64,000 nucleotides of DNA from Metapseudomonas otitidis. GTDB taxonomy: Bacteria > Pseudomonadota > Gammaproteobacteria > Pseudomonadales > Pseudomonadaceae. This document shows, one piece after another, positions 2,703-17,176 of this stretch. Position numbers and translations under genes: made by a program. The stretch spans positions 124,001 through 188,000 of the forward strand of contig NZ_FOJP01000014.1 of assembly GCF_900111835.1 (NCBI RefSeq), read 5' to 3'. Every line of letters starts with the position of its first letter. The stretch's first letter is position 1. A model generated the notes under the pieces. It was given only the letters and a program-made list of their open reading frames with translations. It was not told the DNA's origin and ran no database searches.

Positions 2703-3146
2703 GACGGCCTCCAAAGGGCACCCTGATTATTTTCCCCAGACTATAGATGGCCATTCCTACGCGTCTGTAGTTCTTTGGGATGTCCTGCGACAACGTTTCG
2801 CAGAGGCCTACAGGACCGACGCCTGAACGCTGACTGAATGAAACGCAGGAGGCGATTGACCCCCTTGTGGGCCGGGCGTAGATTCCGCCCGCCTTCCCAC
2901 CCTAAACAGGAGAACCCCTTGGACAGTTGCCCCGGTCGATTGCGACAGGGCTGAACAGCGAGCACGTCCAGCGGTTCCCTCCGCCGTCGTCTCGCTGCCT
3001 TCAGCGGACGGTGGCCCGACGCCCCTTCCTTGACGTTCACCGACGCGCTGCCTGCGCGACGGCGACGCCTGCCTGTGCAATCCACGCCCCTTCAGCGCCG
3101 GTCACCCGGCACACACCCCGGCCCCTGGCCGGACACGAGGTGGAAC
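2703..3146 (+). other. Long leader of the mgtC-mgtA operon
   Basis: 444 bases separate the divergent chemoreceptor gene from mgtC. The left part should hold the divergent promoters. The right part (from about 2880) holds a short ORF with a good ribosome site (2919-2954), followed by a perfect 7-bp dyad CAGCGAG/CTCGCTG at 2956-2962/2991-2997. In Salmonella the mgtCB and mgtA leaders carry short regulatory ORFs and attenuator stems. Whether this leader works likewise is inference. Confidence 0.45.
2919..2954 (+). CDS. Possible 11-residue leader peptide
   Basis: AGGAG at 2909-2913 precedes a TTG start at 2919, and the frame stops at TGA 2952-2954. The peptide would read MDSCPGRLRQG. It begins about 230 bases before mgtC and immediately precedes a stem-loop. 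The spacing is right for translation-coupled attenuation, but the peptide is not Pro-rich like MgtL/MgtP. Could be chance. Confidence 0.3.
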   Translation: MDSCPGRLRQG

Positions 3147-3854
3147 ATGGATTGGAAAGTCTTCCTGCTGCGGGTCGCCGCGGCACTCGTACTCGGCGCC
3201 CTGATCGGCGCCGAGCGTCAACTGCGCCAGCGCCTCACCGGCCTGCGCACCAATGCCCTGGTGAGCACCGGAGCCTGCCTGTTCGTGCTGATGAGCCAGG
3301 GCGTACCGGGCATGGCGGGCGATGCCTCGCGCATCGCCGCCTACGTGGTCTCCGGCATCGGCTTCCTGGGGGGCGGCGTGATCATGCGCGACGGCCTCAA
3401 CGTGCGCGGCCTGAACACGGCCGCAACGCTCTGGTGCACCGCCGCCATCGGCGTGCTGTGCAGCATGGGCCTGCTGCTGGAAGCCGCCCTCGGCACCCTG
3501 GCGGTGCTCTGCGCCAACATCCTGCTGCGTGACATCGCTCAGCGCCTGAACCATCTGGACACCCTGCCCGGCAGCGAGGTCGAGCAGCGCTACAGCGTCG
3601 ACATCGTCTGCCGCGCCGAGGACGAGATCCAGGTGCGCAGCCTGATGCTGCATGACCTGGAGGGCGGCAGCCTGCGCCTGCAATCACTGCACAGCCAGGA
3701 CCAGGCCACGCCCGGGCGCCTGGAGGTGCGCGCCGAACTGCTCGGCAAGCCCGGCACCACCACCCAGCTGGAGCGCCTGGTCAGCCGGGTGAGCCTGGAG
3801 AAAGGCGTCAGCTCGGTGCGCTGGCGGCTTCACGACCTGGCGGCGGACGCATAA
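3147..3854 (+). CDS. mgtC: MgtC/SapB family protein
   Basis: A 235-residue inner-membrane protein of the MgtC family, which in Salmonella and P. aeruginosa supports growth in low magnesium and survival in host cells, partly by modulating F1Fo ATP synthase. The N-terminal half has four to five hydrophobic helices with the family signatures GALIGAERQ and GIGFLGGGVI. The C-terminal half is a soluble ACT-like domain. The ATG at 3147 has GAGGTGG 4-10 bases upstream. The frame stays open 39 codons further upstream, but that stretch is Pro/Arg-rich and lacks a ribosome site, so I excluded it. It lies 70 bases ahead of mgtA and is probably co-transcribed with it. Confidence 0.9.
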   Translation: MDWKVFLLRVAAALVLGALIGAERQLRQRLTGLRTNALVSTGACLFVLMSQGVPGMAGDASRIAAYVVSGIGFLGGGVIMRDGLNVRGLNTAATLWCTAAIGVLCSMGLLLEAALGTLAVLCANILLRDIAQRLNHLDTLPGSEVEQRYSVDIVCRAEDEIQVRSLMLHDLEGGSLRLQSLHSQDQATPGRLEVRAELLGKPGTTTQLERLVSRVSLEKGVSSVRWRLHDLAADA

Positions 3855-3924
3855 CCCATCGGCACCGGGCCGCTCGCCCGGCCCCTCGAACAGCCATCGC
3901 TCCACGAGTGACGAGGAAACCACC

Positions 3925-6642
3925 ATGTTGATGTCCGCCCTGGGCCGGCGCCTGCTGGCCCTGTTCGACCACGGCCTCGGCCGCCATTTCCGCCGCCGCG
4001 CCCTGCTCGACGCGCTGCGCGGCCGGCGCACCGCCGCCACCCTGCCGCCGGCATTCGTCCAGCAACTGGAGGCGTTCGCCAGTTGCCCGCCCGAGCAGCT
4101 GTTCCGGCAACTGGACAGCCAGCCCGGCGGCCTCGACCCGGCCCAGGTGCAGCGGGTGCGCGAACGGGTCGGCACCAACCTGGTGGAACAGGAGAAGCCG
4201 CTGTCGCCCCTGCACCACCTCTGGCTCTGCTACTGCAACCCGTTCAACCTGCTGCTGACCGCCCTGGCGGTGCTCTCCTGGGTCACCGAAGACCTCCAGG
4301 CGGCGCTGGTGATCGGCTGCATGGTGCTGGTCTCGACGCTGCTCCGTTTCGTCCAGGAGACCCGCTCCAACCGCGCGGCGGAAAGCCTGCGGGCGCTGGT
4401 GGACAACACCGCCAGCGTGCTGCGCCCCGGTGCGCCGTCACCCGACCGGCGCGGTGCAGTGGAAGTGCCGTTCCGCGACCTGGTGCCGGGCGACGTGGTG
4501 CTGCTGGCGGCCGGCGACATGATCCCGGCGGACCTGCGGGTGCTGGAGGCGCGCAACCTCTTCCTCAACCAGTCCGCCATCACCGGCGAAGCGCTGCCGG
4601 TGGAGAAGTTCGCCACGCCCCAGGGCCCGACCCCGGGCACGCCCCTGGAGCGCGAAACCCTGTGCTTCATGGGCACCAACGTGGTCAGCGGCAGCGCCCG
4701 CGCGCTGGTGCTGGGCACCGGGCCGAACACCTACTTCGGCAACCTCGCCGCCCATGTGCTGGAGCCCGACCGCGAGCCCAGCGCCTTCCAGCAGGGGGTC
4801 AACAAGGTCAGCTGGCTGCTGATCCGCTTCATGCTGGTGATGGCCCCGGTGGTGCTGCTGGTCAATGGTTTCACCAAGGGCGACTGGCTGCAGGCCTCGC
4901 TGTTCGCCCTCTCCATCGCCGTGGGCCTGACGCCCGAAATGCTGCCGATGATCGTCACCTCGACCCTGGCCAAGGGCGCCCTGGCGCTCTCGCGCAAGAA
5001 GGTGATCGTCAAGCGCCTCGACGCCATCCAGAACTTTGGGGCCATGGACGTGCTGTGCACCGACAAGACCGGCACCCTCACCCAGGACCGCATCGTGCTC
5101 GAACGCCACACCGATGTGCGGGGCCGCCCCTGCGACGCGGTGCTGGACGACGCCTGGCTGAACAGCTACCACCAGACCGGCCTGCGCAACCTGCTGGACG
5201 TGGCGGTGCTGGAGCACGGCGATGCCCTGCGCCGGGCGCAGCTGGCCGAGGCGTTCAGCAAGGTCGACGAACTGCCCTTCGATTTCGAGCGGCGGCGCAT
5301 GTCGGTGGTGGTGGCAGAACACGGCGACGGCCACCGGCTGGTGTGCAAGGGCGCGCTGGACGAGGTGCTGGCGGTGTGCGACCGGGTGCGCCTGGACGGC
5401 GAGGAATTCCCCTTGCACGACGCCCTGCGTGCCGACATCCGCGAGCACGCCGCCCGCCTCAACGACGAGGGGCTTCGGGTGGTGGCGGTGGCGGTGCGGC
5501 AGTTCCCCGGGGAGCGCCGCGACTACCGCGTGGAGGACGAGCAGGACCTGCTGCTCACCGGCTACATCGCCTTCCTCGATCCCCCCAAGGAGACCAGCCG
5601 CGAAGCCCTGCAGGCGCTGCGCGAGCATGGCGTGTCGGTGAAGGTGCTGACCGGCGACAACGAGCGCGTGAGCCAGCGCGTGCTGCGTGAAGTGGGGCTG
5701 CCGGTGGAGGGCCTGCTGCTGGGCAGCGAGGTGGACGCCCTGGATGACCGCGAGCTGGGCGAACGGGCCGCCGCCTGCTCGCTGTTCGCCCGCCTGACGC
5801 CCGCGCAGAAGGCCCGGGTGGTGCGCCTGCTGCGCGAGCGCGGGCACGTGGTGGGCTTCCTCGGTGACGGCATCAACGACGCGCCGGCCCTGCGCGCGGC
5901 GGACATCGGCATCTCGGTGGACACCGCCGTGGACATCGCCAAGGAGGCGGCCGACATCATCCTCCTGGAGAAGAGCCTGATGGTGCTGGAAGCCGGGGTT
6001 CGCGAAGGCCGGCGCACCTTCTCCAACATGCTCAAGTACATCAAGATGACCGCCAGCTCGAACTTCGGGAACGTGTTCAGCGTACTGGTGGCCAGCGCCT
6101 TCCTGCCCTTCCTGCCGATGCTGCCCCTGCACCTGCTGGTGCAGAACCTGCTCTACGACCTGTCGCAGACCGCCATTCCCTTCGACAACGTCGACGACGA
6201 GCAACTGGCCAGGCCGCAGCAGTGGCGGGCCGACGAGATCGGTCGCTTCATGGTGTTCTTCGGGCCGCTCAGCTCCATCTTCGACATCCTCACCTACGCC
6301 CTGATGTGGTTCGTCTTCGCCGCCAGCACACCGGCGCACCAGACCCTGTTCCAGACCGGCTGGTTCGTCGAAGGGCTGCTGTCGCAGACCCTGGTGGTGC
6401 ACCTGATCCGCACACGTCGCCTGCCTTTCCTGCATAGCCGTGCCGGCTGGCCGCTGCTGCTGATGACCCTGGTGATCGCCAGCATCGGCTTGCTGCTGCC
6501 GTTCTCGCCCCTGGCGGCGCACTTCAAGCTGCAGCCCCTGCCGCTGTCGTACTTCCCCTTCCTGCTGGCGCTGCTGCTGGGTTATGCCGCCGTGGTACAG
6601 GCCATGAAAGGGTGGTTCGCCCGCCGCTACGGCTGGCAGTGA
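3925..6642 (+). CDS. mgtA: Magnesium-translocating P-type ATPase
   Basis: A 905-residue P3B-type ATPase, the usual length for MgtA/MgtB, importing Mg2+ at the expense of ATP. The actuator motif TGEALP, the phosphorylation motif DKTGTLT (Asp380), the hinge GDGINDAPAL and about ten membrane helices are all present, so the enzyme should be active. The start is an ATG after GAGGAA. The mgtC-mgtA order matches the Salmonella mgtCB arrangement. A GC hairpin (CCGGGC/GCCCGG near 3868-3884) lies between the two genes and might set their relative expression. A strong terminator follows. Confidence 0.95.
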   Translation: MLMSALGRRLLALFDHGLGRHFRRRALLDALRGRRTAATLPPAFVQQLEAFASCPPEQLFRQLDSQPGGLDPAQVQRVRERVGTNLVEQEKPLSPLHHLWLCYCNPFNLLLTALAVLSWVTEDLQAALVIGCMVLVSTLLRFVQETRSNRAAESLRALVDNTASVLRPGAPSPDRRGAVEVPFRDLVPGDVVLLAAGDMIPADLRVLEARNLFLNQSAITGEALPVEKFATPQGPTPGTPLERETLCFMGTNVVSGSARALVLGTGPNTYFGNLAAHVLEPDREPSAFQQGVNKVSWLLIRFMLVMAPVVLLVNGFTKGDWLQASLFALSIAVGLTPEMLPMIVTSTLAKGALALSRKKVIVKRLDAIQNFGAMDVLCTDKTGTLTQDRIVLERHTDVRGRPCDAVLDDAWLNSYHQTGLRNLLDVAVLEHGDALRRAQLAEAFSKVDELPFDFERRRMSVVVAEHGDGHRLVCKGALDEVLAVCDRVRLDGEEFPLHDALRADIREHAARLNDEGLRVVAVAVRQFPGERRDYRVEDEQDLLLTGYIAFLDPPKETSREALQALREHGVSVKVLTGDNERVSQRVLREVGLPVEGLLLGSEVDALDDRELGERAAACSLFARLTPAQKARVVRLLRERGHVVGFLGDGINDAPALRAADIGISVDTAVDIAKEAADIILLEKSLMVLEAGVREGRRTFSNMLKYIKMTASSNFGNVFSVLVASAFLPFLPMLPLHLLVQNLLYDLSQTAIPFDNVDDEQLARPQQWRADEIGRFMVFFGPLSSIFDILTYALMWFVFAASTPAHQTLFQTGWFVEGLLSQTLVVHLIRTRRLPFLHSRAGWPLLLMTLVIASIGLLLPFSPLAAHFKLQPLPLSYFPFLLALLLGYAAVVQAMKGWFARRYGWQ

Positions 6643-6650
6643 GCCCACTC

Positions 6651-6680
6651 CGCCACCCGCCCGGGCGGGTGGCGCTTTTA
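6651..6680 (+). terminator. Terminator after mgtA
   Basis: A perfect 24-base palindrome at 6651-6674 (CGCCACCCGCCC then its complement) is followed by CTTTTATTT. Confidence 0.9.
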
Positions 6681-6684
6681 TTTC

Positions 6685-6694
6685 GTTACGTAAC
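6685..6694. promoter_or_regulatory. Palindrome GTTACGTAAC, copy 1
   Basis: A perfect 10-bp palindrome (12 bp with flanking C/G) in an AT-rich island. It is followed at once by two copies of TAACGCCAA (6691-6699 and 6701-6709) separated by one base. It lies about 115 bp upstream of the AT-hook-like gene and may be its operator. Confidence 0.45.
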
Positions 6695-6749
6695 GCCAAA
6701 TAACGCCAATGCTTCTATAGGCCTTGTTCTCAAGGGCTTGCAGGTTTCT

Positions 6750-6759
6750 GTTACGTAAC
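6750..6759. promoter_or_regulatory. Palindrome GTTACGTAAC, copy 2
   Basis: The second perfect copy, 65 bp from the first centre to centre (about six helical turns), 48 bp before the AT-hook-like gene. GATAAT at 6760-6765 could be a -10 element, so the palindrome would overlap the promoter. Confidence 0.45.
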
Positions 6760-6806
6760 GATAATCAGCCTCCTGAATCAGCCTTCAAGGCCACCCGGAC
6801 ATCCCC

Positions 6807-7283
6807 ATGAGCCCAACCGCCCCTCCGCCGCGCAAGCGCGGGCGCCCCTGCAACGGCCAGGCCCAGAGCAACGCCGAACGCCAGCGTGCCTGGCGCCAGC
6901 GCCAGGCTGAACAGCGCGAGCGCCAGGCGCGGGACGACCACGCCAGCAGCTGCCTCACCGAGTTCCTCCGCCAGGAGCGCGACCAGGCCCAGGCCGCCCT
7001 GGTGGAGGCGCAACGCCGGCTGGAAGCCCTCGAAGCCCAGGTCCGGCAGCTGCAGCAGCGGCCCGATGACCGCGAAGCGGCGCTGCCCTGGTACCAGGAC
7101 CACGGCCTGGAGGCGGTCTTCGTCCTGGAGTCACGCCTGCGGGAGGAGCGCACCTGGAAGCGGGTCGCCTCCATGGGCGCCTTCACCCGTCGCGACGTGG
7201 CCGAGCAGTGGCTGCAGACCATGCAGGCCCACAGCAGCATGATCGACTACCGCGTCACCCGGCTGCGCTTCTGCGGCGACTGA
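6807..7283 (+). CDS. AT-hook-like coiled-coil protein, function unknown
   Basis: A 158-residue protein I cannot name. Residues 9-14 (RKRGRP) are an AT-hook-like core. An Arg/Gln-rich segment with the NAERQRAW type of motif follows, then a long predicted coiled coil (about residues 25-90) and a small C-terminal globular part. Such GRP...AERQR proteins occur on plasmids and phages as DNA-binding factors. Two GTTACGTAAC palindromes sit upstream, so autoregulation is plausible. No strong Shine-Dalgarno is visible before the ATG. The last 153 bases overlap the convergent GNAT/C39 gene, which is unusual. Confidence 0.7.
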   Translation: MSPTAPPPRKRGRPCNGQAQSNAERQRAWRQRQAEQRERQARDDHASSCLTEFLRQERDQAQAALVEAQRRLEALEAQVRQLQQRPDDREAALPWYQDHGLEAVFVLESRLREERTWKRVASMGAFTRRDVAEQWLQTMQAHSSMIDYRVTRLRFCGD

Positions 7284-8375
7284 GCCCTCGCGGCGGAACA
7301 GCGTCACCGAAGCCCGCAGCTTGTGGCGGCCGAAGGCGCTCATGCGGGCAAACGCCTCCCGGCTCACCGGCAGGTGCTGGCAATCCAGGGGCTGCCGGCT
7401 GTGGTCGACGTCGGGGTCGTGGAGGTAGACGAAATCCTCGTCGCACCCGGTGACCACCACCCAGTGCGGTGACTTGGAACGGGTCAGCCGGTAGCTGCTG
7501 ATCAACACCAGCAACACACCGCCGGCCTGCAGGCCGCCGTCCAGCTCCGCCCAGGGCGCCTCCACCTGCTCAACGTCGGTACCGGCCAGGGCATCGAGAA
7601 ACACCTCGTGCACCAGGCGCATCACCGCGCGCTTGTCCTCGCTGCGCACGCCTTCGAGGAACAGCGGCCCGCGCCGGCTCACCTGCAGGCGCACCCGAAA
7701 GCCCCGTCGCCAGGCCGCCAGGGCCAGGCCCTGGGGGCTGCAGCCACCGTGGCCGGCGGTCATGAACACCGTGGTCGCCTCGCGCCACAGCTGCACTTCC
7801 TCGCGGCGCTCCATGGCCCGCTGCGGGTACAGCGCCGCCATGGCCATCAGCAGGCAGGCCGGGCCGCAGGTGAAGTCGGTGCTTTGCGGGTAATAGGGCA
7901 CGCGGCGGGTGCCGGCCTGGCGCGGCTGGCGGATGCGCTTCTCGTAGCGCAGCGCGCCGGCGTGGTCCTCGTAGTAGTCGTCGATCACCGCGAAGCGCCG
8001 ATAGCCGGCACGCTCGTAGAGGGCGATGGCCGCCGGGTTGTCGACCCGCACCTCCAGCCGCAGGTAGGCACAGTCGTGCGCGTGGGCGCAGCGTTCGGCC
8101 TGCTCCAGCAGCTGCCGGCCGATGCCCCGGCCCTGCAGGTGCCCGGCAATGGCCAGGGAATACAACCGGGCCAGGGAGGTGCCCCGGTGGAACAGCACCA
8201 GGGCATAGCCCACCACCGCCCCCTCATGCTCCGCCACGGTGAAGGCGGCATGGGCGCGGTTGACCATCCAGGCCAGGCTGCGGGGGCTGAGCCGGTCGTG
8301 GCTGAAAGTGCGGTTTTCCAGGGCCACCAGTTCGGGCAGGTCGGCCGCCCGAGCAACGCGAAAATCAAGTTTCAT
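7131..8375 (-). CDS. GNAT acetyltransferase fused to C39-like peptidase
   Basis: A 414-residue fusion. Residues 1-148 are a GNAT domain of RimI type with the acetyl-CoA loop QGRGIG. Residues 160-363 are a papain-like peptidase C39 domain with Cys170 (FTCGPACL), His304 (PHWVV) and Asp320 in place, so a catalytic triad is likely. The last 51 residues lie beyond the natural end of the domain and run antisense through the 3' end of the AT-hook gene, as if an earlier stop had been lost. The ATG at 8375 has GGAG 6 bases upstream. It is divergent from an ATP-grasp ligase gene; GNAT, peptidase and ATP-grasp partners suggest making, capping and cleaving a peptide. Confidence 0.85.
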   Translation of the reverse strand: MKLDFRVARAADLPELVALENRTFSHDRLSPRSLAWMVNRAHAAFTVAEHEGAVVGYALVLFHRGTSLARLYSLAIAGHLQGRGIGRQLLEQAERCAHAHDCAYLRLEVRVDNPAAIALYERAGYRRFAVIDDYYEDHAGALRYEKRIRQPRQAGTRRVPYYPQSTDFTCGPACLLMAMAALYPQRAMERREEVQLWREATTVFMTAGHGGCSPQGLALAAWRRGFRVRLQVSRRGPLFLEGVRSEDKRAVMRLVHEVFLDALAGTDVEQVEAPWAELDGGLQAGGVLLVLISSYRLTRSKSPHWVVVTGCDEDFVYLHDPDVDHSRQPLDCQHLPVSREAFARMSAFGRHKLRASVTLFRREGSVAAEAQPGDAVVDHAAVGLHGLQPLLGHVATGEGAHGGDPLPGALLPQA

Positions 8376-8469
8376 GGGAACTCCGTAAAGAGTGCGTAAC
8401 GGTCCGGGACATTTCCAAAAGCGCGTGCTTAATAGAAAGCCTGTGTTCCCGAACGGATCGATAAATCCC

Positions 8470-10053
8470 ATGAATGCGGTGCAGAACCGGTGGCAGGAAG
8501 TATTGGACAGAACACGAACGGCAGCAACTTTCAAATTGACGCCGATTCAAACGGAAGAACTTTCCAACCACCCCCTGATCATTGTCGAGCGGACCGAAGA
8601 CTGGTCGGCCTACTTCCCCACGGATTACCTGATCAGTGCTCGCGACTACCTGGAACAGTCGCCCGGCGGGCCTTCCAGGCCGCGTGCGCAGGTCATCAAC
8701 CTGTGTCGCAACTACAAGTACCTGGGCCACGGTTATTACTGTTCGCTGTTGGCCGAGGCACGCGGACATAAAGTCATCCCGTCGGTGAAGACCATCAATG
8801 AACTGACCCGCAAGTCCATCTACGGGCTGGCGCTGGATGAACTTGAAACTTCACTGGACGATGCACTCGAACAACAACCCTGCGGCAATACCGAAGGGTT
8901 CACCTTGAGTCTTTATTTCGGCCATACCGAACTTGAAAGTCTCCAGGACATTGCCCGCCAGCTGTTCGAGGCCTTCCCCTGCCCGATCCTGCTGGTGGAC
9001 TTCCGCAAGGGCGAGCGCTGGCAGGTGACCGGTGTGCGACCGGGTGCCCTGCACCGCCTGCGGGACGACCAGCAGGACCTCTTCGCCGACGCCCTGGACC
9101 GCTTCAGCCGTAAGGTCTGGCGCCAGCCCCGCGCACCGCGCCAGGCCCGCTACGACCTGGCCATCCTGCATGACCCGGGCGAAGCGCTGCCGCCGTCCAA
9201 CCCACGGGCCCTGCAGCGCTTCGTCGAGGTGGGCGAGCGCCTGGGCATCGCCGTGGACCTGATCGGCCGCAAGGACTATGCACGGCTCGCCGAGTACGAC
9301 GCCCTGCTGATCCGCGAGACCACCAGCGTCGACAGCCACACCTACCGCTTCGCCCGCAAGGCCGAGAGCGAAGGGCTGGTGGTGATGGACGACCCCAGCT
9401 CCATCCTGCGCTGCACCAACAAGGTCTACCTGGCCGACCTGCTGACCAGCCACGGGCTGGGCATGCCCGCCACCGAGATCCTCTACCGCGAACGGCTCGG
9501 CGAGATCGAGCAGGTCGGCGAGCGCCTGGGCTTCCCCCTGGTGCTGAAGATCCCCGACGGCTGCTTCTCCCGCGGGGTGATCAAGGTGACCTCCGCCGCC
9601 GAGCTGCGCCGCGCGGCCGGCGAGCTGTTCGAGCACTCGGTGCTGCTGCTCGCCCAGGAGTACTGCTACACCGAGTACGACTGGCGCATCGGCGTCCTCA
9701 ACCGCAAGCCGCTGTATGCCTGCCAGTACTTCATGTCCAAGGGCCACTGGCAGATCTACAACCACAAGGCCAAGGGCGCCGACATCAACGGCGAGTGCCG
9801 CACCCTGCCGGTGCACGAGGCGCCACGCGCCGTGGTGGACCTGGCCCTGCAGGCCGCCGGGCTGATCGGCGATGGCCTCTACGGGGTGGACCTGAAGCAG
9901 GCCGGCGACCGCGTGGTGGTGATCGAGGTGAACGACAACCCCAACCTGGATGCGGGCATCGAGGACGCCTACCTGCAGGACGACCTCTACGCCCTGGTGC
10001 TGGAGGAGTTCATCCGCCGCCTCGATCTCCGCCGTCGCGGCCAGGCCTGGTGA
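8470..10053 (+). CDS. RLAN-RimK family ATP-grasp ligase
   Basis: A 527-residue protein with an N-terminal RLAN domain (about 1-200) and a C-terminal RimK-type ATP-grasp domain (about 290-515). Visible marks are LVLKIPDGCFSRGV (ATP-binding loop) and the metal-binding end VIEVNDNPNLDAG. ATP-grasp enzymes of this type join a carboxylate to an amine, often adding glutamates to peptides or proteins; the substrate here is unknown. The start is set at ATG 8470 from the RLAN domain, though the ribosome site is weak. Divergent from the GNAT/C39 gene and 4 bases ahead of the CorA-like gene, so operonic with it. Confidence 0.87.
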   Translation: MNAVQNRWQEVLDRTRTAATFKLTPIQTEELSNHPLIIVERTEDWSAYFPTDYLISARDYLEQSPGGPSRPRAQVINLCRNYKYLGHGYYCSLLAEARGHKVIPSVKTINELTRKSIYGLALDELETSLDDALEQQPCGNTEGFTLSLYFGHTELESLQDIARQLFEAFPCPILLVDFRKGERWQVTGVRPGALHRLRDDQQDLFADALDRFSRKVWRQPRAPRQARYDLAILHDPGEALPPSNPRALQRFVEVGERLGIAVDLIGRKDYARLAEYDALLIRETTSVDSHTYRFARKAESEGLVVMDDPSSILRCTNKVYLADLLTSHGLGMPATEILYRERLGEIEQVGERLGFPLVLKIPDGCFSRGVIKVTSAAELRRAAGELFEHSVLLLAQEYCYTEYDWRIGVLNRKPLYACQYFMSKGHWQIYNHKAKGADINGECRTLPVHEAPRAVVDLALQAAGLIGDGLYGVDLKQAGDRVVVIEVNDNPNLDAGIEDAYLQDDLYALVLEEFIRRLDLRRRGQAW

Positions 10054-10057
10054 GCCC

Positions 10058-10996
10058 ATGCTCGACGCCTACCGCCTGGGCGACGGCCGCCTGCAGCGCA
10101 CCTCCGAAGCGGACGCCAGCGTGCTGCTGTGCGTCGACCCCGATGCCGGCGAACGCGAGCACCTGTGCCGCACCTGGCAGCTGGACCAGCACGCGCTGGA
10201 CTCGGCCCTGGATCCCGACGAGGTATCACGCATCGAATTCCACGGCGAGCGGCTGTTCCTGATCTGGAAGCGCCCGGAGCGCTGCACCGGGCAGGACGGC
10301 ATGGTCTTCGAAGTGAGCGCCTTCGGCATGCTGCTGGAGCCGACGCGGCTGCTGGTGATCGCCGCCGGCGATTCGCTGCTGCAGGGGGTCGGCCAGCGCG
10401 GCGCCCTCGCCACCCCACGCGACGTGCTGCTGGACATGCTGTTCAGCAGCGTCCACCACTACCTCGGCCACCTGCGGGTCATCAAGCTGGTGGCCCGCGA
10501 GCTGCAGGCCCGCTTCAACCGCTCGCTGGACAACAGCCACCTGATGCAGATGGTCAACCTCAGCGAAAGCCTCATCCACTACCTCAACGCCATCCAGAGC
10601 AACGCCACCGTGCTGGTGCGCCTGCGCAACCACGCCGCCGAGTACCAGCTGGATGCGGCCGCCCTGGCGACCCTGGACGACCTGATCATCGAGAACGAGC
10701 AGTGCTACAAGCAGGCGCGGATCTACTCCACGGTGTTCGCCGCGCTGATGGACGCACGGGGCAGCCTGGCCAACCACGGCATCAACGACATGCTGCGCAA
10801 GCTGACACTGATCAACGTGGTGTTCCTGCCGCTCAACCTGGTGGCCAGCATCGGCGGTATGTCGGAATTCAGCATGATGACCGCCGGTGCGCCCTGGTGG
10901 GTCGCCTACCCGCTCCTGCTGCTCGGGATGCTGCTCCTGAGCGGCCTCATGCTGGCCTTTCTCAGGCGAATGGCGCACCCTCGCCACCAGCCCTGA
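10058..10996 (+). CDS. CorA/ZntB-like divalent cation transporter
   Basis: A 312-residue protein with a soluble alpha/beta N-terminal part, a long helical stalk and two C-terminal membrane helices (about 250-268 and 280-303), the architecture of CorA. The pore signature, normally GMN, reads GMS at 267-269. ZntB and some CorA relatives also deviate, so transport may persist with changed selectivity. It starts 4 bases after the ATP-grasp stop. Whether it moves Mg2+ or Zn2+, or only supports the ligase system, cannot be told. Confidence 0.85.
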   Translation: MLDAYRLGDGRLQRTSEADASVLLCVDPDAGEREHLCRTWQLDQHALDSALDPDEVSRIEFHGERLFLIWKRPERCTGQDGMVFEVSAFGMLLEPTRLLVIAAGDSLLQGVGQRGALATPRDVLLDMLFSSVHHYLGHLRVIKLVARELQARFNRSLDNSHLMQMVNLSESLIHYLNAIQSNATVLVRLRNHAAEYQLDAAALATLDDLIIENEQCYKQARIYSTVFAALMDARGSLANHGINDMLRKLTLINVVFLPLNLVASIGGMSEFSMMTAGAPWWVAYPLLLLGMLLLSGLMLAFLRRMAHPRHQP

Positions 10997-11025
10997 GCCC
11001 ACCGCACCCATTGGAAACGGAATCC

Positions 11026-11154
11026 ATGATGCAGAACGCTCAACTCGGACTGGCCGTCTCGGCGATCATCGTCGCCTTCGGCCTCGTACTCTTCTATTTC
11101 GACCACCTGCGCGGCCCGCGCAGGCAACGGGACGAGGAGGACCCGGGACACTGA
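11026..11154 (+). CDS. Small single-pass membrane protein (42 aa)
   Basis: A 42-residue ORF with GGAAACGGA upstream and an ATG at 11026 (a second ATG follows directly). Residues 8-25 form one hydrophobic helix; the tail is charged (RRQRDEEDPGH). It lies 29 bases behind the CorA-like gene and ahead of a hairpin, so it looks like the last gene of that operon. Possibly a small partner of the transporter. No known family recognised. Confidence 0.55.
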   Translation: MMQNAQLGLAVSAIIVAFGLVLFYFDHLRGPRRQRDEEDPGH

Positions 11155-11157
11155 CCG

Positions 11158-11180
11158 GCGGGGGCTTCGGCCCCCGCTTC
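11158..11180 (+). terminator. Hairpin after the CorA-like operon
   Basis: GCGGGGGC and GCCCCCGC form a perfect 8-bp stem around a TTCG tetraloop (11158-11177), followed only by TTC, so it is a weak terminator. Confidence 0.6.
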
Positions 11181-11230
11181 CCCATCACGCACAGGCCTTC
11201 CCGAGGCTGTGCACGCTCCACTCCCCACCT

Positions 11231-12109
11231 TCAGCCACGGCTGCGTTGCAGCCAGGCCGCCCCCAGTCCACTGAGGCAGACGATGCCGATGCCCACCAGG
11301 GTGGTCAGGTCCGGCGCGTGGGCGTACAGCAGGTAGCCCAGCAGCCCGGCGAAGACGATCTGGCAGTAGCCGAAGGGCGCCAGCAAGGCTGCCGGCGCAT
11401 GGCGGAAGGCCTGGGTCAGGAACAGGTGCGCCGCCATGCCCAGGGTGCCCAGGGCCACCAGCAGCAAGCCGTCGAACAGGCTCGGCAACTGCCAGAAGAA
11501 CGGCACCAGCAGACTCATCACCAGGGTGTTGCACACCCCCGCGAGGAAGTTGCTGGTGGTGGGGCTGTCGTGGGCCGAGAGGATGCGCGTCAGCAGCTGA
11601 TAGGCGCAGAAGCCCAGGGCCGAGCCCAGCGGGAAGAGGATCGCCGGGGTGAACAGCGCCCCGCCCGGGTGCACGATCACCACCACGCCGACGAAGCCCA
11701 TCGCCACCGCCAGCCACTGGCCGGCACTGACCCGCTCCTTCAGCAGCGGTGCCGAGAGCGCCGTCACCAGGATCGGCGCCAGGAAGTTCACCGCCGTGGC
11801 CTCGGCCAGCGGCACGAACTGCAGGCCGGTGGTGAACAGCAGGCTGGTGCTCAGCAGGCTCAGCGCCCGCAGCACCTGCAGCACCGGTCGTTGGGTGCGC
11901 AGCCCGCGCAGGCCGGCGCGGGGCAGGAACAGCCCGGCCATCAGCAGGCTGTGCACCAGGTAGCGCGCCCACACCACCATCACCACCGGGTACAGGCCCC
12001 CCAGGTGCTTGGACAGTGCGTCGTGCCCGGCGAACAGGAAGGTCGCCAGCAGGACCAGCGCCACACCGCGCAAGGGCTGGCTGACAGCGGTTGAAATCGG
12101 ATCGCTCAT
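11231..12109 (-). CDS. EamA/DMT family permease
   Basis: A 292-residue inner-membrane protein with ten predicted helices in two EamA repeats, typical of drug/metabolite exporters such as RhtA or YdcZ relatives. The ATG at 12109 follows a GAGG. It lies 33 bases downstream of the TIM-barrel isomerase gene and probably shares its transcript. The substrate is not predictable; context with an IclR regulator, an isomerase and an OprD porin suggests a carbon source or metabolite. Confidence 0.88.
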   Translation of the reverse strand: MSDPISTAVSQPLRGVALVLLATFLFAGHDALSKHLGGLYPVVMVVWARYLVHSLLMAGLFLPRAGLRGLRTQRPVLQVLRALSLLSTSLLFTTGLQFVPLAEATAVNFLAPILVTALSAPLLKERVSAGQWLAVAMGFVGVVVIVHPGGALFTPAILFPLGSALGFCAYQLLTRILSAHDSPTTSNFLAGVCNTLVMSLLVPFFWQLPSLFDGLLLVALGTLGMAAHLFLTQAFRHAPAALLAPFGYCQIVFAGLLGYLLYAHAPDLTTLVGIGIVCLSGLGAAWLQRSRG

Positions 12110-12142
12110 GACACCTCGAGAACCGGCGCAAAGGCCGATGGA

Positions 12143-12958
12143 TCAGAGACCGGCCAACAGCGCCAGGGTTCGCTCGCGCGCCTGGCGCGCCCGCGCCTCG
12201 GCGCTCACGCCCTGCTCCAGCAACTGCCGGGTGGGGATCTCCAGGCTCAGGGGGATGCCTGCCGGCAACGCCCGCAGCAACCCCGCCAGGTCGCAGTCCC
12301 CCTCCCCCGGGAAGCGCCGCTCGTTGCGGGCCTGGCGGAGGATTTCCTGCATGTCGTCCGGGCGCGGCCCGGCCACGTCGCACAACTGGGCGTAGCGCAG
12401 GCGCTGCGGTGGCAGGGCCCGCAGGTCCGCCAGGCGCGAGGCCGAGCGGTCGAAGTGGAAGGCATCCACCAGCACCGCGCCGTTGGGCTGGCCCGCGCGT
12501 TCGACGACCCGGGCCGCCTGGCCGAGGTCGCGGGCGTCGGTCCAGGGCATGAATTCCAGGCTGACGTGCAGCCCCAGGGGCGCCGCACGCTCGCACAGTT
12601 CGGCGAAGCGGTCGGCCAGCCGGGTTTCATCCGGGTCGTTGCCGGCCACCAGCACCTCGCTGGCGCCGAACTCGGCCCCGGCTTCCAGCACGGCGGCGAA
12701 GTCCGCCACACAGGTCTCCGGCTTCAGCCGCAGGATCTCGATGTCCAGCACCTGCACCCCGGTATCGCCCAGGCGCTGGCGGGTGCGCCGACGCAGATCG
12801 GCATCGGCCACCACGGGGAAGTGGTGCTCCTCCGGCGTCGCCGGGATCAGCCGCAAGCCCACATGGCTGTAGCCGGTGCGGGCGGCCACCTCGACCATGT
12901 CCGGGGGTGCCAGCTCCAGCACCGTCAAGGCGGCGAGCGACAGCGCACGGTCAGCCAC
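12143..12958 (-). CDS. Xylose isomerase-like TIM-barrel protein
   Basis: A 271-residue sugar phosphate isomerase/epimerase (AP endonuclease 2) family protein. Acidic metal ligands appear in the expected strands: Glu in SLEFMPW, Asp in VDAFHFDR, Asp in QLCDVAG and Glu in SLEIPT. The family includes ketose epimerases, inosose dehydratases and 3-dehydroshikimate dehydratases; I cannot choose among these. The start is GTG at 12958 with AGGAGG 7-8 bases upstream. Upstream, after a terminator, lies an IclR regulator on the same strand; downstream is an EamA permease. Confidence 0.82.
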   Translation of the reverse strand: MADRALSLAALTVLELAPPDMVEVAARTGYSHVGLRLIPATPEEHHFPVVADADLRRRTRQRLGDTGVQVLDIEILRLKPETCVADFAAVLEAGAEFGASEVLVAGNDPDETRLADRFAELCERAAPLGLHVSLEFMPWTDARDLGQAARVVERAGQPNGAVLVDAFHFDRSASRLADLRALPPQRLRYAQLCDVAGPRPDDMQEILRQARNERRFPGEGDCDLAGLLRALPAGIPLSLEIPTRQLLEQGVSAEARARQARERTLALLAGL

Positions 12959-12998
12959 GGCGGGCCTCCTGCCTAGTCGGCATCATCGGGAAGGCATG

Positions 12999-13022
12999 AA
13001 AAAACCGGCCAGGCAGCCGGTT
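12999..13022 (-). terminator. Terminator of the IclR gene
   Basis: Read on the minus strand, AACCGGC and GCCGGTT form a 7-bp stem (13003-13022) followed by six T. It separates the IclR gene from the TIM-barrel gene. Confidence 0.8.
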
Positions 13023-13151
13023 GGCGAAGGACGGGACGGACACGGGGACCTCACAGCAAGGGGGTTCTGAAATCGGCTTCGCGTTATTTAGAACAGAGTT
13101 CCATTTTTACGCAATAGGCGATCTTCACGGCCCGTGGCGAGGCCCAGCGGA

Positions 13152-13928
13152 TCACGGGAAGAGTTCGGAGGCCTGGCTCGCGTCGCCCAGTTCAGCGGCC
13201 GCAGCCAGCAGGCACGGGGCCAGTTCGTGCATGCGCGCCTCCGGCAGGCGGGCGCTGGGGCCGGCCACGCTGAGCACACCGATGACCTGGCCAGTGGCCG
13301 GGTGACGCACCACGGCGGCCATCGCCGACATGCCCACGGCGGAGCTTTCCACCACCCAGGCGTAGCCGCGCTCACGGGCGCGGCGCAGGCGCTCCAGCAG
13401 CTCGATGTTCGAGTGCGGCGCGTTGGGGCCGAAGCCGGCCGGGTCGGCGATGCCCTGGCGCTCCACCAGGGCCAGTGCCTCGGCATCGCTCAGGGCCGCC
13501 AGCCAGGCGTGCCCCGAGGCGGTGTAGAACAACGGCGCGTCCCGGCCCATGTCCGGGTCGTAGCGCAGGCCGGAGCGAGCCCCCTGGGACTTGGCGATCC
13601 AGGTCAGCCGCCCCCCCTCGGTCACGCCCAGGCGCACCAGTTCGGCGCTCTCCTGGGCCAGGCGGTCGAGGATCGGCTGGACGATGTCCGCACCGCTGCT
13701 GGCCAGGTGGCGGAAGGCCATGGCCACCAGCCGCGTGGACAGCTGGTAACGGCTGTTGTCGGGGTTCTGCCGCACGTAGCCGAGGCGGATCAGCTCGGCC
13801 AGCATGCGGTGGGTCGCGCTCTTGGGGATCTGCAGCTCATCGGAGAGGGCCTGCAGCGCCAACCCCTGGGGGTCGGAGGTCAGGCGTTCGAGGAGGCTGA
13901 AGGCGCGTTCGATCTGGCTACCGGCCAT
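13152..13928 (-). CDS. IclR family transcriptional regulator
   Basis: A 258-residue regulator with an N-terminal winged helix (residues about 6-65, LTSDPQGLALQALSD then IPKSATHR as recognition helix) and a C-terminal IclR effector domain (about 80-250). IclR proteins often control aromatic or sugar-acid catabolism by binding pathway intermediates. The ATG at 13928 has AGGA 10 bases upstream; the open frame further upstream carries no ribosome site. Likely targets are the adjacent OprD porin gene and the isomerase/permease pair. Confidence 0.9.
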   Translation of the reverse strand: MAGSQIERAFSLLERLTSDPQGLALQALSDELQIPKSATHRMLAELIRLGYVRQNPDNSRYQLSTRLVAMAFRHLASSGADIVQPILDRLAQESAELVRLGVTEGGRLTWIAKSQGARSGLRYDPDMGRDAPLFYTASGHAWLAALSDAEALALVERQGIADPAGFGPNAPHSNIELLERLRRARERGYAWVVESSAVGMSAMAAVVRHPATGQVIGVLSVAGPSARLPEARMHELAPCLLAAAAELGDASQASELFP

Positions 13929-14160
13929 GGCGTGGGTCCTGGATGAGGGTGCGGCGATTCTAGAAGACACAGCCCCCAGGCCGAAACCTGGAACGCATCC
14001 GTCGTTTCGCGCACAAATGTACGAACCAGTTAGTTTTCGTTCGCTGATCGAACACAAGCGCCTTGGACGAATTGAACAGCGCCCAGCCTGCAACCACTAT
14101 CGGCCCAGGCCCGGCGCCCTGACGCCGGCGACCCCAATAACGACAAGAAAGGTCATCCCG

Positions 14161-14253
14161 ATGCACCCCACCTGCTTCCTCCCACGCCTTCGCGTCCCTG
14201 ATCGCCAGCCCGCTGCCGCCTGCCCGGCACCGCACAGCCCGCGCCCGGCCTGA
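14161..14253 (+). CDS. Possible 30-residue ORF in the porin leader
   Basis: ATG at 14161 follows AAGAAAGG at a good distance (8 bases), and an A-rich CA-like stretch (AATAACGACAAGAAAGG) precedes it, as at the catabolic genes elsewhere in this window. The encoded peptide is Pro/Arg/Cys-rich with no recognisable fold. It may be a leader peptide, the decayed start of a deleted catabolic gene, or chance. Confidence 0.25.
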   Translation: MHPTCFLPRLRVPDRQPAAACPAPHSPRPA

Positions 14254-14314
14254 TCACCCGCTCCACGCCCACCGCCCATTCGCCAACGCCGCGAAGGGCC
14301 TCCTGCGCCCCGAC

Positions 14315-14322
14315 AACAACAA
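14315..14322 (+). promoter_or_regulatory. CA motif (Crc/Hfq type) before OprD porin
   Basis: AACAACAA matches the AAnAAnAA consensus bound by Hfq/Crc in Pseudomonas. It lies just before the GAGG ribosome site of the porin gene. Confidence 0.65.
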
Positions 14323-14335
14323 GACAGAGGCCACC

Positions 14336-15598
14336 ATGCCCCTCACTCATCGCCACGCCCTGCACACCACCCTCCTGGCCAGCGCCATCGCCCTCGCCAG
14401 CCAGGCCGCCCAGGCTGCCGAAAGCCCCGGATTCATCGACGGCAGCAGCGCCACGCTGAACCTGCGCAACTTCTACATGAACCGCAACTTCGTCGGCACC
14501 AGCACCCAGGACCAGGCCGAGGAATGGACCCAGAGCTTCATCCTCGACGCCAAGTCCGGCTTCACCCAGGGCACCGTCGGCTTCGGGGTCGACGTGCTCG
14601 GGCTCTACGCCCTCAAGCTCGACGGCGGCAAGGGCACCCGCGGCACCCAGTTGCTGCCGGTGCACGACGACGGCCGCCCGGCCGACGACTTCGGCCGCCT
14701 GGCGGTGGCCGGCAAGATGAAGGTCTCCGACACCGAGCTGAAGGTGGGCGAGTGGATGCCGGTGCTGCCGATCCTGCGTTCCGACGATGGCCGCTCGCTG
14801 CCGCAGACCTTCCGGGGCGCCCAGGTGACCTCCAGGGAGATCGCCGGCCTGACCCTCTACGGCGGCCAGTTCCGCGGCAACAGCCCGCGCAACGACGCCA
14901 GCATGGAAGACCTGTCCCTGATGGGTAAGGCGGCCTTCACCTCCGACCGCTTCAACTTCGCCGGCGGCGAATACAGCTTCAACGAGAACCGCACCCTGGT
15001 CGGGCTCTGGTACGCCGAGCTGCAGGACATCTACCGCCAGAACTACCTGCAGGTGGTGCACAGCCAGCCCCTGGGCGACTGGACCCTGGGCGCCAACCTC
15101 GGTTACTTCACCGGCCGGGAAGACGGCTCCGCCCGGGCCGGCGACCTCGACAACCGCACCTGGTCCGCCCTGCTCTCCGCCAAGTACGGCAGCAGCACCT
15201 TCTACCTGGGCCTGCAGAAGGTCAGCGGCGACGACGCCTGGATGCGCGTCAACGGCACCAGCGGCGGCACCCTGGCCAACGACAGCTACAACTCCAGCTA
15301 CGACAACGCCAAGGAGCGCTCCTGGCAGCTGCGCCACGACTTCAACTTCGCCGCCCTCGGCGCGCCCGGCCTGACCCTGATGAACCGCTACATCCACGGC
15401 AGCGACGCCCATGTCGGTGGCGTGACCGATGGCAAGGAATGGGGCCGCGAGAGCGAGCTGGCGTACGTCATCCAGTCGGGCACCTTCAAGAGCCTCTCGG
15501 TCAAATGGCGCAACTCCAGCCAGCGCCGCGACTGGGGCAACACCAACAGCTTCGACGAGAACCGCCTGATCGTGAGCTACCCGCTCTCGCTGCTCTGA
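14336..15598 (+). CDS. OprD family outer-membrane porin
   Basis: A 420-residue substrate-specific porin. A signal peptide ends near residue 27 (AQAAE). The N-terminal LNLRNFYMNRNF block and the alternating beta-strand pattern are typical of the 18-stranded OprD/Opd group, which takes up basic amino acids (OccD) or carboxylates and aromatic acids (OccK). The last residue is Leu instead of the usual aromatic. GAGG precedes the ATG, and a CA motif overlaps the leader. Divergent from an IclR regulator. The substrate is probably a carboxylate, but this is inference. Confidence 0.92.
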   Translation: MPLTHRHALHTTLLASAIALASQAAQAAESPGFIDGSSATLNLRNFYMNRNFVGTSTQDQAEEWTQSFILDAKSGFTQGTVGFGVDVLGLYALKLDGGKGTRGTQLLPVHDDGRPADDFGRLAVAGKMKVSDTELKVGEWMPVLPILRSDDGRSLPQTFRGAQVTSREIAGLTLYGGQFRGNSPRNDASMEDLSLMGKAAFTSDRFNFAGGEYSFNENRTLVGLWYAELQDIYRQNYLQVVHSQPLGDWTLGANLGYFTGREDGSARAGDLDNRTWSALLSAKYGSSTFYLGLQKVSGDDAWMRVNGTSGGTLANDSYNSSYDNAKERSWQLRHDFNFAALGAPGLTLMNRYIHGSDAHVGGVTDGKEWGRESELAYVIQSGTFKSLSVKWRNSSQRRDWGNTNSFDENRLIVSYPLSLL

Positions 15599-15621
15599 CG
15601 CCCCCTCCTCGCTGGACCTCG

Positions 15622-15646
15622 GGCCCGCCCTGGCGGGCCATTTTTT
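15622..15646 (+). terminator. Terminator after OprD porin
   Basis: GGCCCGCC and GGCGGGCC form an 8-bp stem at 15622-15639, followed by ATTTTTT. Confidence 0.9.
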
Positions 15647-15760
15647 CGTGCCCGCCACCTGGCACCGGCACGCCGGAACCTCCTGTTTCCCTTATCCATC
15701 CACGACACCGGCTGCCGTTTCGCTGGTCGCCAGGTTGCAAACCGCCAAACCTCCTCAAGA

Positions 15761-17176
15761 ATGAATACCGACCCTCCAGGTATTCAGCCCCTGATGCCCG
15801 CCTCCCAGCCCTTTTTCAAACGCCTGAAGCAGCTGTGGCTCGCCCACGACCTGGCCTTGATCGGCCAGCGCCGCGAGCGACGCATGCGCATGCTGGCCAG
15901 CCTGGTGATGCTGGTGATCGGGGTGCTCTGGGGCGCCGTGTTCGCCGCGCGGGATGCCTGGCTGATCGTGGCGATGGACCTGCTGCTGGTGCTCTGCGGC
16001 ATCGGCGTACTGGCCCTGACCCTGCGCAACCGCGCGCGCAGCGCCAACCTCCTGCTGTTCGCCGTGCTGGTGGTGGTCATCAGCATCTCCACCCTGCTGC
16101 TGGACGAGCCCAGCCCGGCAGCACCTCGGGCATCCCACCTCTATTTGCTGCCGGTGTCGGTGGCCGCGTTGATGGCCTTCCGCGACGAGCCGATGTGGCT
16201 GCGCTACGGCGTCTCGCTGTTCTGCCTGGCGCTGTTCACCGTCATGGCCTCCACCTCCTGGAGCCCTGGCCTCGGCTACGGCCTGCCGGACGAGCTGCGG
16301 GTGATCGGCTCCTGGGTGCAGAGCATCGCCGCGGCGGTGATGCTGTTCCTGCTGCTGCACATCCTGCAGACCGATGCCGCCGAGCGCTCCGAGCTGGACC
16401 GCGACCTGCGCACGGCCCTGCGGGAGCAGCAGTTCGTGCTGCACTACCAGCCGCAGCTGGACATCCAGGGGCGCGTGCTCGGCGCCGAAGTGCTGATCCG
16501 CTGGCAACACCCCCAGCGCGGCCTGCTGGCGCCCGCCGAGTTCATCGACCACGCCGAGAAGACCGGGCTGATCATCCCCATCGGCCAGTGGGTGCTGCAC
16601 GAGACCTGCGCCCAGCTGGCCGCGTGGAAGGCCATCCCGCTGTTCCGCGAGCTGCACCTGGCGGTGAACATCAGCCAGAACCAGTTCCGCCAGGCCACCT
16701 TCGTCAACGACGTGCTGGGGCTGATCCAGCGGTCGGGCATCGAGGCGCGCAACCTGGAACTGGAGCTGACCGAGACCCTGATCGTGCAGGACATGGAGGA
16801 CCTGTCGCGGAAGATGGCCGCCCTGGTGGAACACGGCGTGCGCTTCTCCCTCGACGACTTCGGCACCGGCTTCTCGTCCCTCAGCCACCTCAAGCGCCTG
16901 CCCCTGGACAAGCTGAAGATCGACCGTTCCTTCGTCTGCGACGTGCTCACCGACAGCAGCAGCGAAACCATCGTGCGCACCGTCATCGCCCTGGGCCAGA
17001 GCATGGGCATGAGCGTGATCGCCGAGGGCGTGGAGACCCAGGCGCAGCAGCGTTTCCTCGCCGACAGCGGTTGCCTGCAATACCAGGGCTACCTGTTCAG
17101 CCGCCCGCTGCCGCTGCAGGCGTTCCAGGCCTTCGTCAGCGAACGCGCCGAGCGGCAGGCCGACGCCGCCGGCTGA
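15761..17176 (+). CDS. Membrane-anchored EAL domain c-di-GMP phosphodiesterase
   Basis: A 471-residue protein. Residues about 40-205 contain seven or so hydrophobic helices in an uncharacterised sensor region. Residues about 213-460 are an EAL domain with no GGDEF domain ahead of it. Signature residues are intact: EVLIRW, NISQNQ, ELTET, DDFGTG, KLKID and EGVET, so hydrolysis of cyclic di-GMP is expected. The ATG at 15761 lacks a strong Shine-Dalgarno; a second ATG at 15794 would lose only 11 residues. It converges with a small membrane protein gene, only 3 bases between stops. Confidence 0.9.

Follow-up and report, generated by a model that had tools for sequence, protein, structure and literature searches.

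A four-gene variant of the RLAN-RimK ligase and GNAT acetyltransferase system in Pseudomonadaceae, with a CorA-like protein and a membrane microprotein

Results

Organization of the locus

The analysed stretch of DNA (the window) comprises 64,000 nucleotides of the 6.34 Mb genome of Metapseudomonas otitidis, whose nearest named relatives in a search with the ligase are Pseudomonas species. The four genes that the initial annotation had described were confirmed at their positions by profile matches and by the sequence. A GNAT/C39 peptidase fusion lies on the minus strand (7290..8375), where Pfam, alignment and the structure model place a RimI/Ard1-like GNAT in residues 1-150 and a papain-like DUF3335/C39 domain in residues 159-361. 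The plus strand carries an RLAN-RimK ATP-grasp ligase of 527 amino acids (8470..10053; ATP-grasp module in residues 228-521), a CorA-superfamily protein (10058..10996; PF01544) with GGMSEF replacing the GMN signature, and a 42-aa microprotein with a single transmembrane segment (11026..11154), recognized by its IGL...I...NYFD-type family, its dN/dS and its location. The ligase is divergent from the fused gene, and its stop codon is separated from the CorA ATG by 4 bases, in agreement with the initial annotation.

The divergent intergenic region between the GNAT/C39 and ligase starts (8376..8469, 94 bp) gave no sigma-70-like site in a simple scan; promoters and terminators were likewise not found by simple scans, nor were Rfam elements at window positions 3000-16000. 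The ligase probably starts at ATG 8470 and not at the mechanically assigned GTG 8392, which is too early since the frames of close relatives contain stop codons in this part and begin at the position corresponding to ATG 8470; outside Pseudomonas the family start lies a further ~30 residues in. The full GNAT/C39 frame (minus strand, 8375-7131) ends in a tail (7131..7289, about residues 363-414, the last ~45-50) that nearly all of the 30 aligned relatives lack, has a pLDDT of about 33 in the structure model and runs antisense to a conserved gene, therefore it is a run-on and probably non-functional. This conserved gene (6807-7283, plus strand) converges with GNAT/C39 and overlaps its 3' end; it encodes 158 amino acids with an AT-hook-like RGRP start, a coiled region and no Pfam match, and 53-55% identical homologues of it were found in three relatives.

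Upstream of the locus, on the plus strand, an MgtC-family gene (3030-3854) is followed by a gene for an MgtA-like P-type cation ATPase (3925-6642), an arrangement suggestive of magnesium. As a conserved neighbour the MgtA/MgtC pair was rejected, being found at the window only among the ligase loci searched.

The ligase and the acetyltransferase/peptidase

The ligase belongs to the RLAN family (PF14401, 5e-51, 172.7 bits against a cut-off of 25) and also matches the RimK domain (PF08443, 2.7e-7). Its structure model (pLDDT 82) contains a complete LysX/RimK fold at residues 228-521, with RLAN N-terminal to it, and the module resembles LysX 3vpd (Z 28.3, rmsd 2.2, 268 aligned) and P. aeruginosa RimK 7qyr (Z 27.5); the list of its structural matches was filled by ATP-grasp proteins and covers this module, outside the RLAN residues 35-225. 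The ATP/Mg residues K360, D474, E486 and N488 are invariant in 30 ligase rows. The score for the RimK alpha-L-glutamate ligase model TIGR00768 (73.1 bits) is below its cut-off of 143.4, and the 25 best matches listed for this protein do not include TIGR03103. In one close relative (L130, 1492-3078) an in-frame TAG, either decay or a sequencing error, interrupts the ligase, and CorA and the microprotein are still present there.

The fused protein contains Acetyltransf_1 (3e-18 in Pfam) and DUF3335 (PF11814, 2.8e-84, 282 bits), and its score with Peptidase C39 of bacteriocin exporters (PF03412) is 14.8 bits, below the cut-off of 22. The peptidase triad had been described as intact, and this holds: none of the 30 aligned homologues deviates at Cys170, His304 or the oxyanion-type Gln164, and position 320 is Asp or Glu (HDP/HEP). 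The list of structural matches of the model (pLDDT 84.8) was filled by GNATs and covers the GNAT half of the protein, the best being Ard1 4pv6 (Z 23.4) and RimI 2cnm (Z 23.1), which count as tied since matches with Z within 1 of each other were not ranked. The RimI equivalog TIGR01575 was passed marginally (89.2 vs 86.4 bits), whereas with the NAGGN synthetase model TIGR03103 the protein reached 28.3 bits, far below the cut-off of 569. The GNAT is thus predicted to be of the N-terminal-acetyltransferase, i.e. amine-capping, type, and its fusion with DUF3335 argues that its substrate would differ from ribosomal protein S18, the target of RimI. Fusion of DUF3335 to GNAT is described as frequent, with a 2009 amidoligase survey cited for it, in PMC10318531.

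The CorA-like protein and the microprotein

The match of the CorA-like protein with PF01544 (4e-30, 105.6 vs 27 bits) spans positions 11-292 of 292, which places it in the CorA superfamily, but with the CorA Mg channel model TIGR00383 it scored 61.3 bits against a cut-off of 200.75. The canonical CorA signature is YGMNF. All 22 aligned rows of the window's subfamily have GGMSEF or GGMSEY at this site, hence the signature Asn has been lost (GMN to GMS) and the label of cation channel can be regarded as putative. Two further CorA-family genes, with the motifs GMN and GIN, are present elsewhere in the source genome.

The ligase occurs in 54 of 248 Pseudomonadaceae genomes and a CorA of the window's subfamily in 22, in every case (22/22) on the same strand as a ligase match and no more than about 40 bp from its end; a search of 273 other genomes from the class draw found no member of this subfamily. 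Four changes are required on the ligase tree to account for the rows that bear CorA, a number as low as this was reached in 0 of 500 shuffles, and most simply CorA was gained once and lost three times.

The microprotein family (30-51 aa, mostly with an upstream Shine-Dalgarno-like site) is conserved in its transmembrane helix, IGL...I...NY(F)D, and variable in its tail. Across 11 distinct relatives differences fell at third codon positions 481 times, versus 133 at first and 112 at second positions, with a mean dN of 0.046 and a dS of 0.33 (dN/dS about 0.14). The gene lies directly 3' of CorA, or of the ligase where CorA is missing, and in four relatives (L252-L255) ligase, CorA, microprotein and GNAT/C39 follow one another co-directionally with short gaps, which are 13/71/55 bp in L253.

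Of the 27 strong copies of the microprotein found family-wide, 22 are at the locus beside ligase or CorA. The other five suggested an independent gene, a view that was mostly rejected, each of them being at the remnants or flanks of a deleted locus. One (L243) is beside GNAT and ligase fragments, another (L242) beside the last residues of C39, and three (L240/L241/L247) are flanked by a homologue of gene 6807-7283, and their DNA becomes similar to the window shortly ahead of the CorA stop, a short CorA remnant known from DNA alignments of 146-177 bp.

Conservation of the core and its neighbours

The initial annotation had proposed a comparative neighbourhood survey as a check, and the linkage of ligase and GNAT proved to be kept. 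Of 397 genomes from the phylum 81 contain RLAN, the core occurring in 46 of the 232 genera sampled, and 80 loci (<=20 kb each) were examined together with the window. A GNAT of the same subfamily adjoins the ligase, on either side and in either orientation, or is fused to it in 79/81 loci; in three of them (L096, L104, L110) the ligase frame itself begins with the GNAT domain. The peptidase domain is fused to GNAT in 57/81 loci, while the remaining 24 have a bare GNAT or, in two cases, no GNAT, and no such C39 was found within their stretches. The near-invariant pair is therefore ligase and GNAT, and C39, considered as a core part, was rejected as such and is optional. In a second collection, of named genomes, GNAT was found at 74/80 ligase loci, several of the remaining ones being cut by contig ends. 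Conversely, RLAN is present in 62 of the 63 genomes with DUF3335 (hypergeometric p 3e-54, with relatedness ignored) and is no further than 6 kb from 60 of the 66 DUF3335 copies, a linkage far beyond chance.

Outside Pseudomonadaceae neither CorA nor the 42-aa protein was detected in the loci of the phylum survey or, for CorA, in the class draw; they are additions of this family to the core. The proposal that the four genes form one system consequently stands in part. In Pseudomonadaceae, where co-directional operons, a ligase-bound CorA subfamily and deletion scars were observed, it applies to all four genes, which have been inherited and lost together. Beyond this family it applies to ligase and GNAT, but not to the often absent C39 or to CorA and the microprotein.

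Several individual loci deserve separate mention. Three genomes of one genus hold two copies of the system (L041/L048, L049/L046, L047/L050), one with and the other without the peptidase domain, and the microprotein accompanies only the copy without it. A record named Pantoea sp. Cy-639 (L171) contains a Pseudomonas-like locus with a 71% identical ligase, GNAT/C39 and the microprotein, and is probably misnamed. Two MAGs named Bacteroidetes and Pontiellaceae (L202, L216) carry GNAT and a 56-57% identical ligase of gammaproteobacterial type, which could reflect transfer or contaminated bins.

DUF2817 genes were detected at 22/161 loci. They are arranged in three ways, lying between GNAT/C39 and the ligase, behind the ligase in convergent orientation, or co-directionally, and one member also matches the succinylglutamate desuccinylase/aspartoacylase domain. 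In L061 the ligase is flanked by another C39-type peptidase and, on its opposite side, overlapped by a GCS2 ligase. A sodium/calcium exchanger is encoded close to the ligase in 7 loci, which come from three of the surveyed families. When 67 near neighbours, taken from diverse loci, were scanned with Pfam, no family appeared in more than two members. Downstream of one ligase (L221, 8059-11158) DUF2817, GNAT/C39 and DUF155 (RMND1-like) are in series. In two loci (L045, L184) an EAL-domain gene converges with the ligase about 100-160 bp from its end, which recalls rimA beside rimK; EAL genes are common and this may be chance. An anti-phage defence system was also considered and rejected, as PADLOC-DB 2.0.0 gave no defence-system model match, apart from a lone partial match of CorA (14.8 bits).

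Discussion

It is proposed that the four genes form one functional unit, in which a widespread core of ligase and GNAT, complemented by membrane parts added in this clade, would produce a capped peptide; we hold this reading, the most likely of those considered, tentatively, as one that could well prove wrong. The RLAN-RimK ligase would activate a carboxylate with ATP and attach an amino acid to an acceptor (a further amino acid or a short peptide) held by the RLAN domain. The RimI/Ard1-type GNAT might then acetylate the exposed amine, resulting in a capped small peptide as in NAGGN synthesis, and the papain-like domain, or DUF2817 in other lineages, could hydrolyse or trim the product. In Pseudomonas the CorA-like protein and the microprotein would move or sense, at the membrane, a divalent cation tied to the product. 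The LysX/RimK fold, the invariant E486/N488 and the Ard1/RimI-like GNAT make carboxylate activation and alpha-amine acetylation the most likely reactions, and the chemistry of the ligase, GNAT and peptidase steps is moderately supported by family membership. The earlier idea of a system that adds and removes amino acids is plausible as a hypothesis.

DUF2817-like deacylases and GCS2 are small-molecule enzymes. Together with the GNAT-ligase fusions and the constancy of GNAT, not of the peptidase, this favours a small peptide over a protein as the product. The DUF2817, GCS2 and sodium/calcium exchanger neighbours support small-molecule peptide chemistry and hint at cations. The cation step of CorA and microprotein at the membrane is a weak suggestion drawn from such neighbours and from the MgtC and MgtA-like genes of the window, and against it most of the systems are devoid of CorA and, among the ligase loci searched, MgtA/MgtC occur in one genome only.

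A different view, which we consider unlikely but deserving of attention, is protein tagging, in which the ligase would extend the C-terminus of a protein with Glu-like residues, as RimK does with S6, the papain-like domain would take these residues off again and the GNAT would acetylate the N-terminus of a protein. The usual targets are protein N-termini for RimI/Ard1-type GNATs and protein C-termini for LysX/RimK enzymes, so that protein modification fits these families as well as small peptides do; the closest folds to the ATP-grasp module are those of LysX and RimK, enzymes of protein carboxy ends, and the GNAT is just above the RimI cut-off (89.2 vs 86.4 bits). Precedents for such tagging are offered by the RimK/RimB ligase-protease pair and by RloA/B/C (PMC12239564). 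However, the ligase does not reach the cut-off of TIGR00768 (73 vs 143 bits), the locus has no linked gene for a protein substrate, and removal is not a core function since the peptidase is missing at 24/81 loci while GNAT is nearly always kept.

The membrane genes could also be an independent cation-transport pair which rides behind the ligase promoter and is unrelated to the ligase product. Their absence from most ligase loci, the MgtC/MgtA-like neighbours in the window and the persistence of the microprotein at deletion scars in five genomes would agree with this, but all 22 CorA copies are behind the ligase, none having been found by itself, four relatives have CorA and the microprotein enclosed by ligase and GNAT/C39, and the source genome has two other CorA-family genes elsewhere, which makes this explanation quite unlikely. 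Highly unlikely in our estimation, and bolder than the capped-peptide proposal, is that the GGMSEF CorA-like protein and the microprotein constitute a membrane gate of a new kind for export or import of the ligase's capped peptide or its metal complex; if this were true, the locus would use a peptide for the homeostasis of divalent cations, with the CorA pore repurposed. In a RiPP-like (graspetide-like) pathway, finally, the microprotein would serve as ribosomal substrate, modified by ligase and GNAT and cut by C39. The presence of a small gene in one operon with genes for an ATP-grasp ligase and a papain-like peptidase suggests this, but it is hardly credible given that the microprotein is restricted to Pseudomonadaceae while the core occurs in 46/232 genera, that its helix and not its tail is conserved, and that it is kept where C39 has been lost.

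Returning to the proposed capped-peptide unit, its ligase and GNAT are widespread, with RLAN-RimK in 81/397 sampled genomes of the phylum. The self-contained version of Pseudomonas with its dedicated membrane part, and the close relatives from which the locus has been deleted, provide a tractable route to the product. Furthermore, a CorA relative always accompanied by one particular ligase would be a test of how far the CorA fold can be repurposed.

Comparison with known systems

The RLAN-RimK/GNAT-peptidase neighbourhood was reportedly described by Iyer et al. in the 2009 amidoligase survey, and the Pfam RLAN entry PF14401 presumably names the same ligase-GNAT/peptidase neighbourhood. The window shares with it the ligase, the GNAT-papain-like fusion and their tight linkage, whereas the dedicated non-GMN CorA and the microprotein are additions of the window's clade. 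NAGGN is N-acetylglutaminylglutamine amide, and TIGR03103 is a GNAT/ATP-grasp synthetase accompanied by an amidotransferase and a peptidase. The locus has the same logic of acetyltransferase, ATP-grasp ligase and peptidase, but no amidotransferase was seen in it, and RLAN and CorA are not part of the NAGGN system. From the CorA/ZntB Mg/Zn transporters, with which the window's CorA shares PF01544 over nearly its full length and hydrophobic C-terminal segments, its subfamily is distinguished by GMS in place of GMN (22 rows) and by a score far below the CorA equivalog cut-off.

PA1766-PA1768 of P. aeruginosa, which we took to be a possible counterpart of the locus, yielded no RLAN system and was rejected; PA1768 is mentioned in the Rlo paper (PMC12239564). 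In P. fluorescens RimK and RimB are a ligase-plus-protease pair acting on RpsF, and in RloA/B/C an ATP-grasp protein is paired with secreted peptidases and a membrane protein (PMC12239564). Both resemble the window in combining an ATP-grasp protein with a peptidase, and Rlo also in its membrane protein; they differ in their retropepsin-like peptidases, in having no GNAT partner and, for RimK, in having no RLAN (PMC12239564).

Our literature search found no paper mentioning RLAN, DUF3335 only in PMC10318531, and no paper on CorA or microprotein partners of the ligase. The optional C39, the GNAT-ligase fusions, the DUF2817 arrangements and the deletion scars mapped here go beyond the known RLAN neighbourhood. 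The association of ligase and GNAT/C39, and thus the system as such, was already known, whereas its four-gene variant, which is well supported, with the non-GMN (GGMSEF) CorA and the microprotein, appears to be new.
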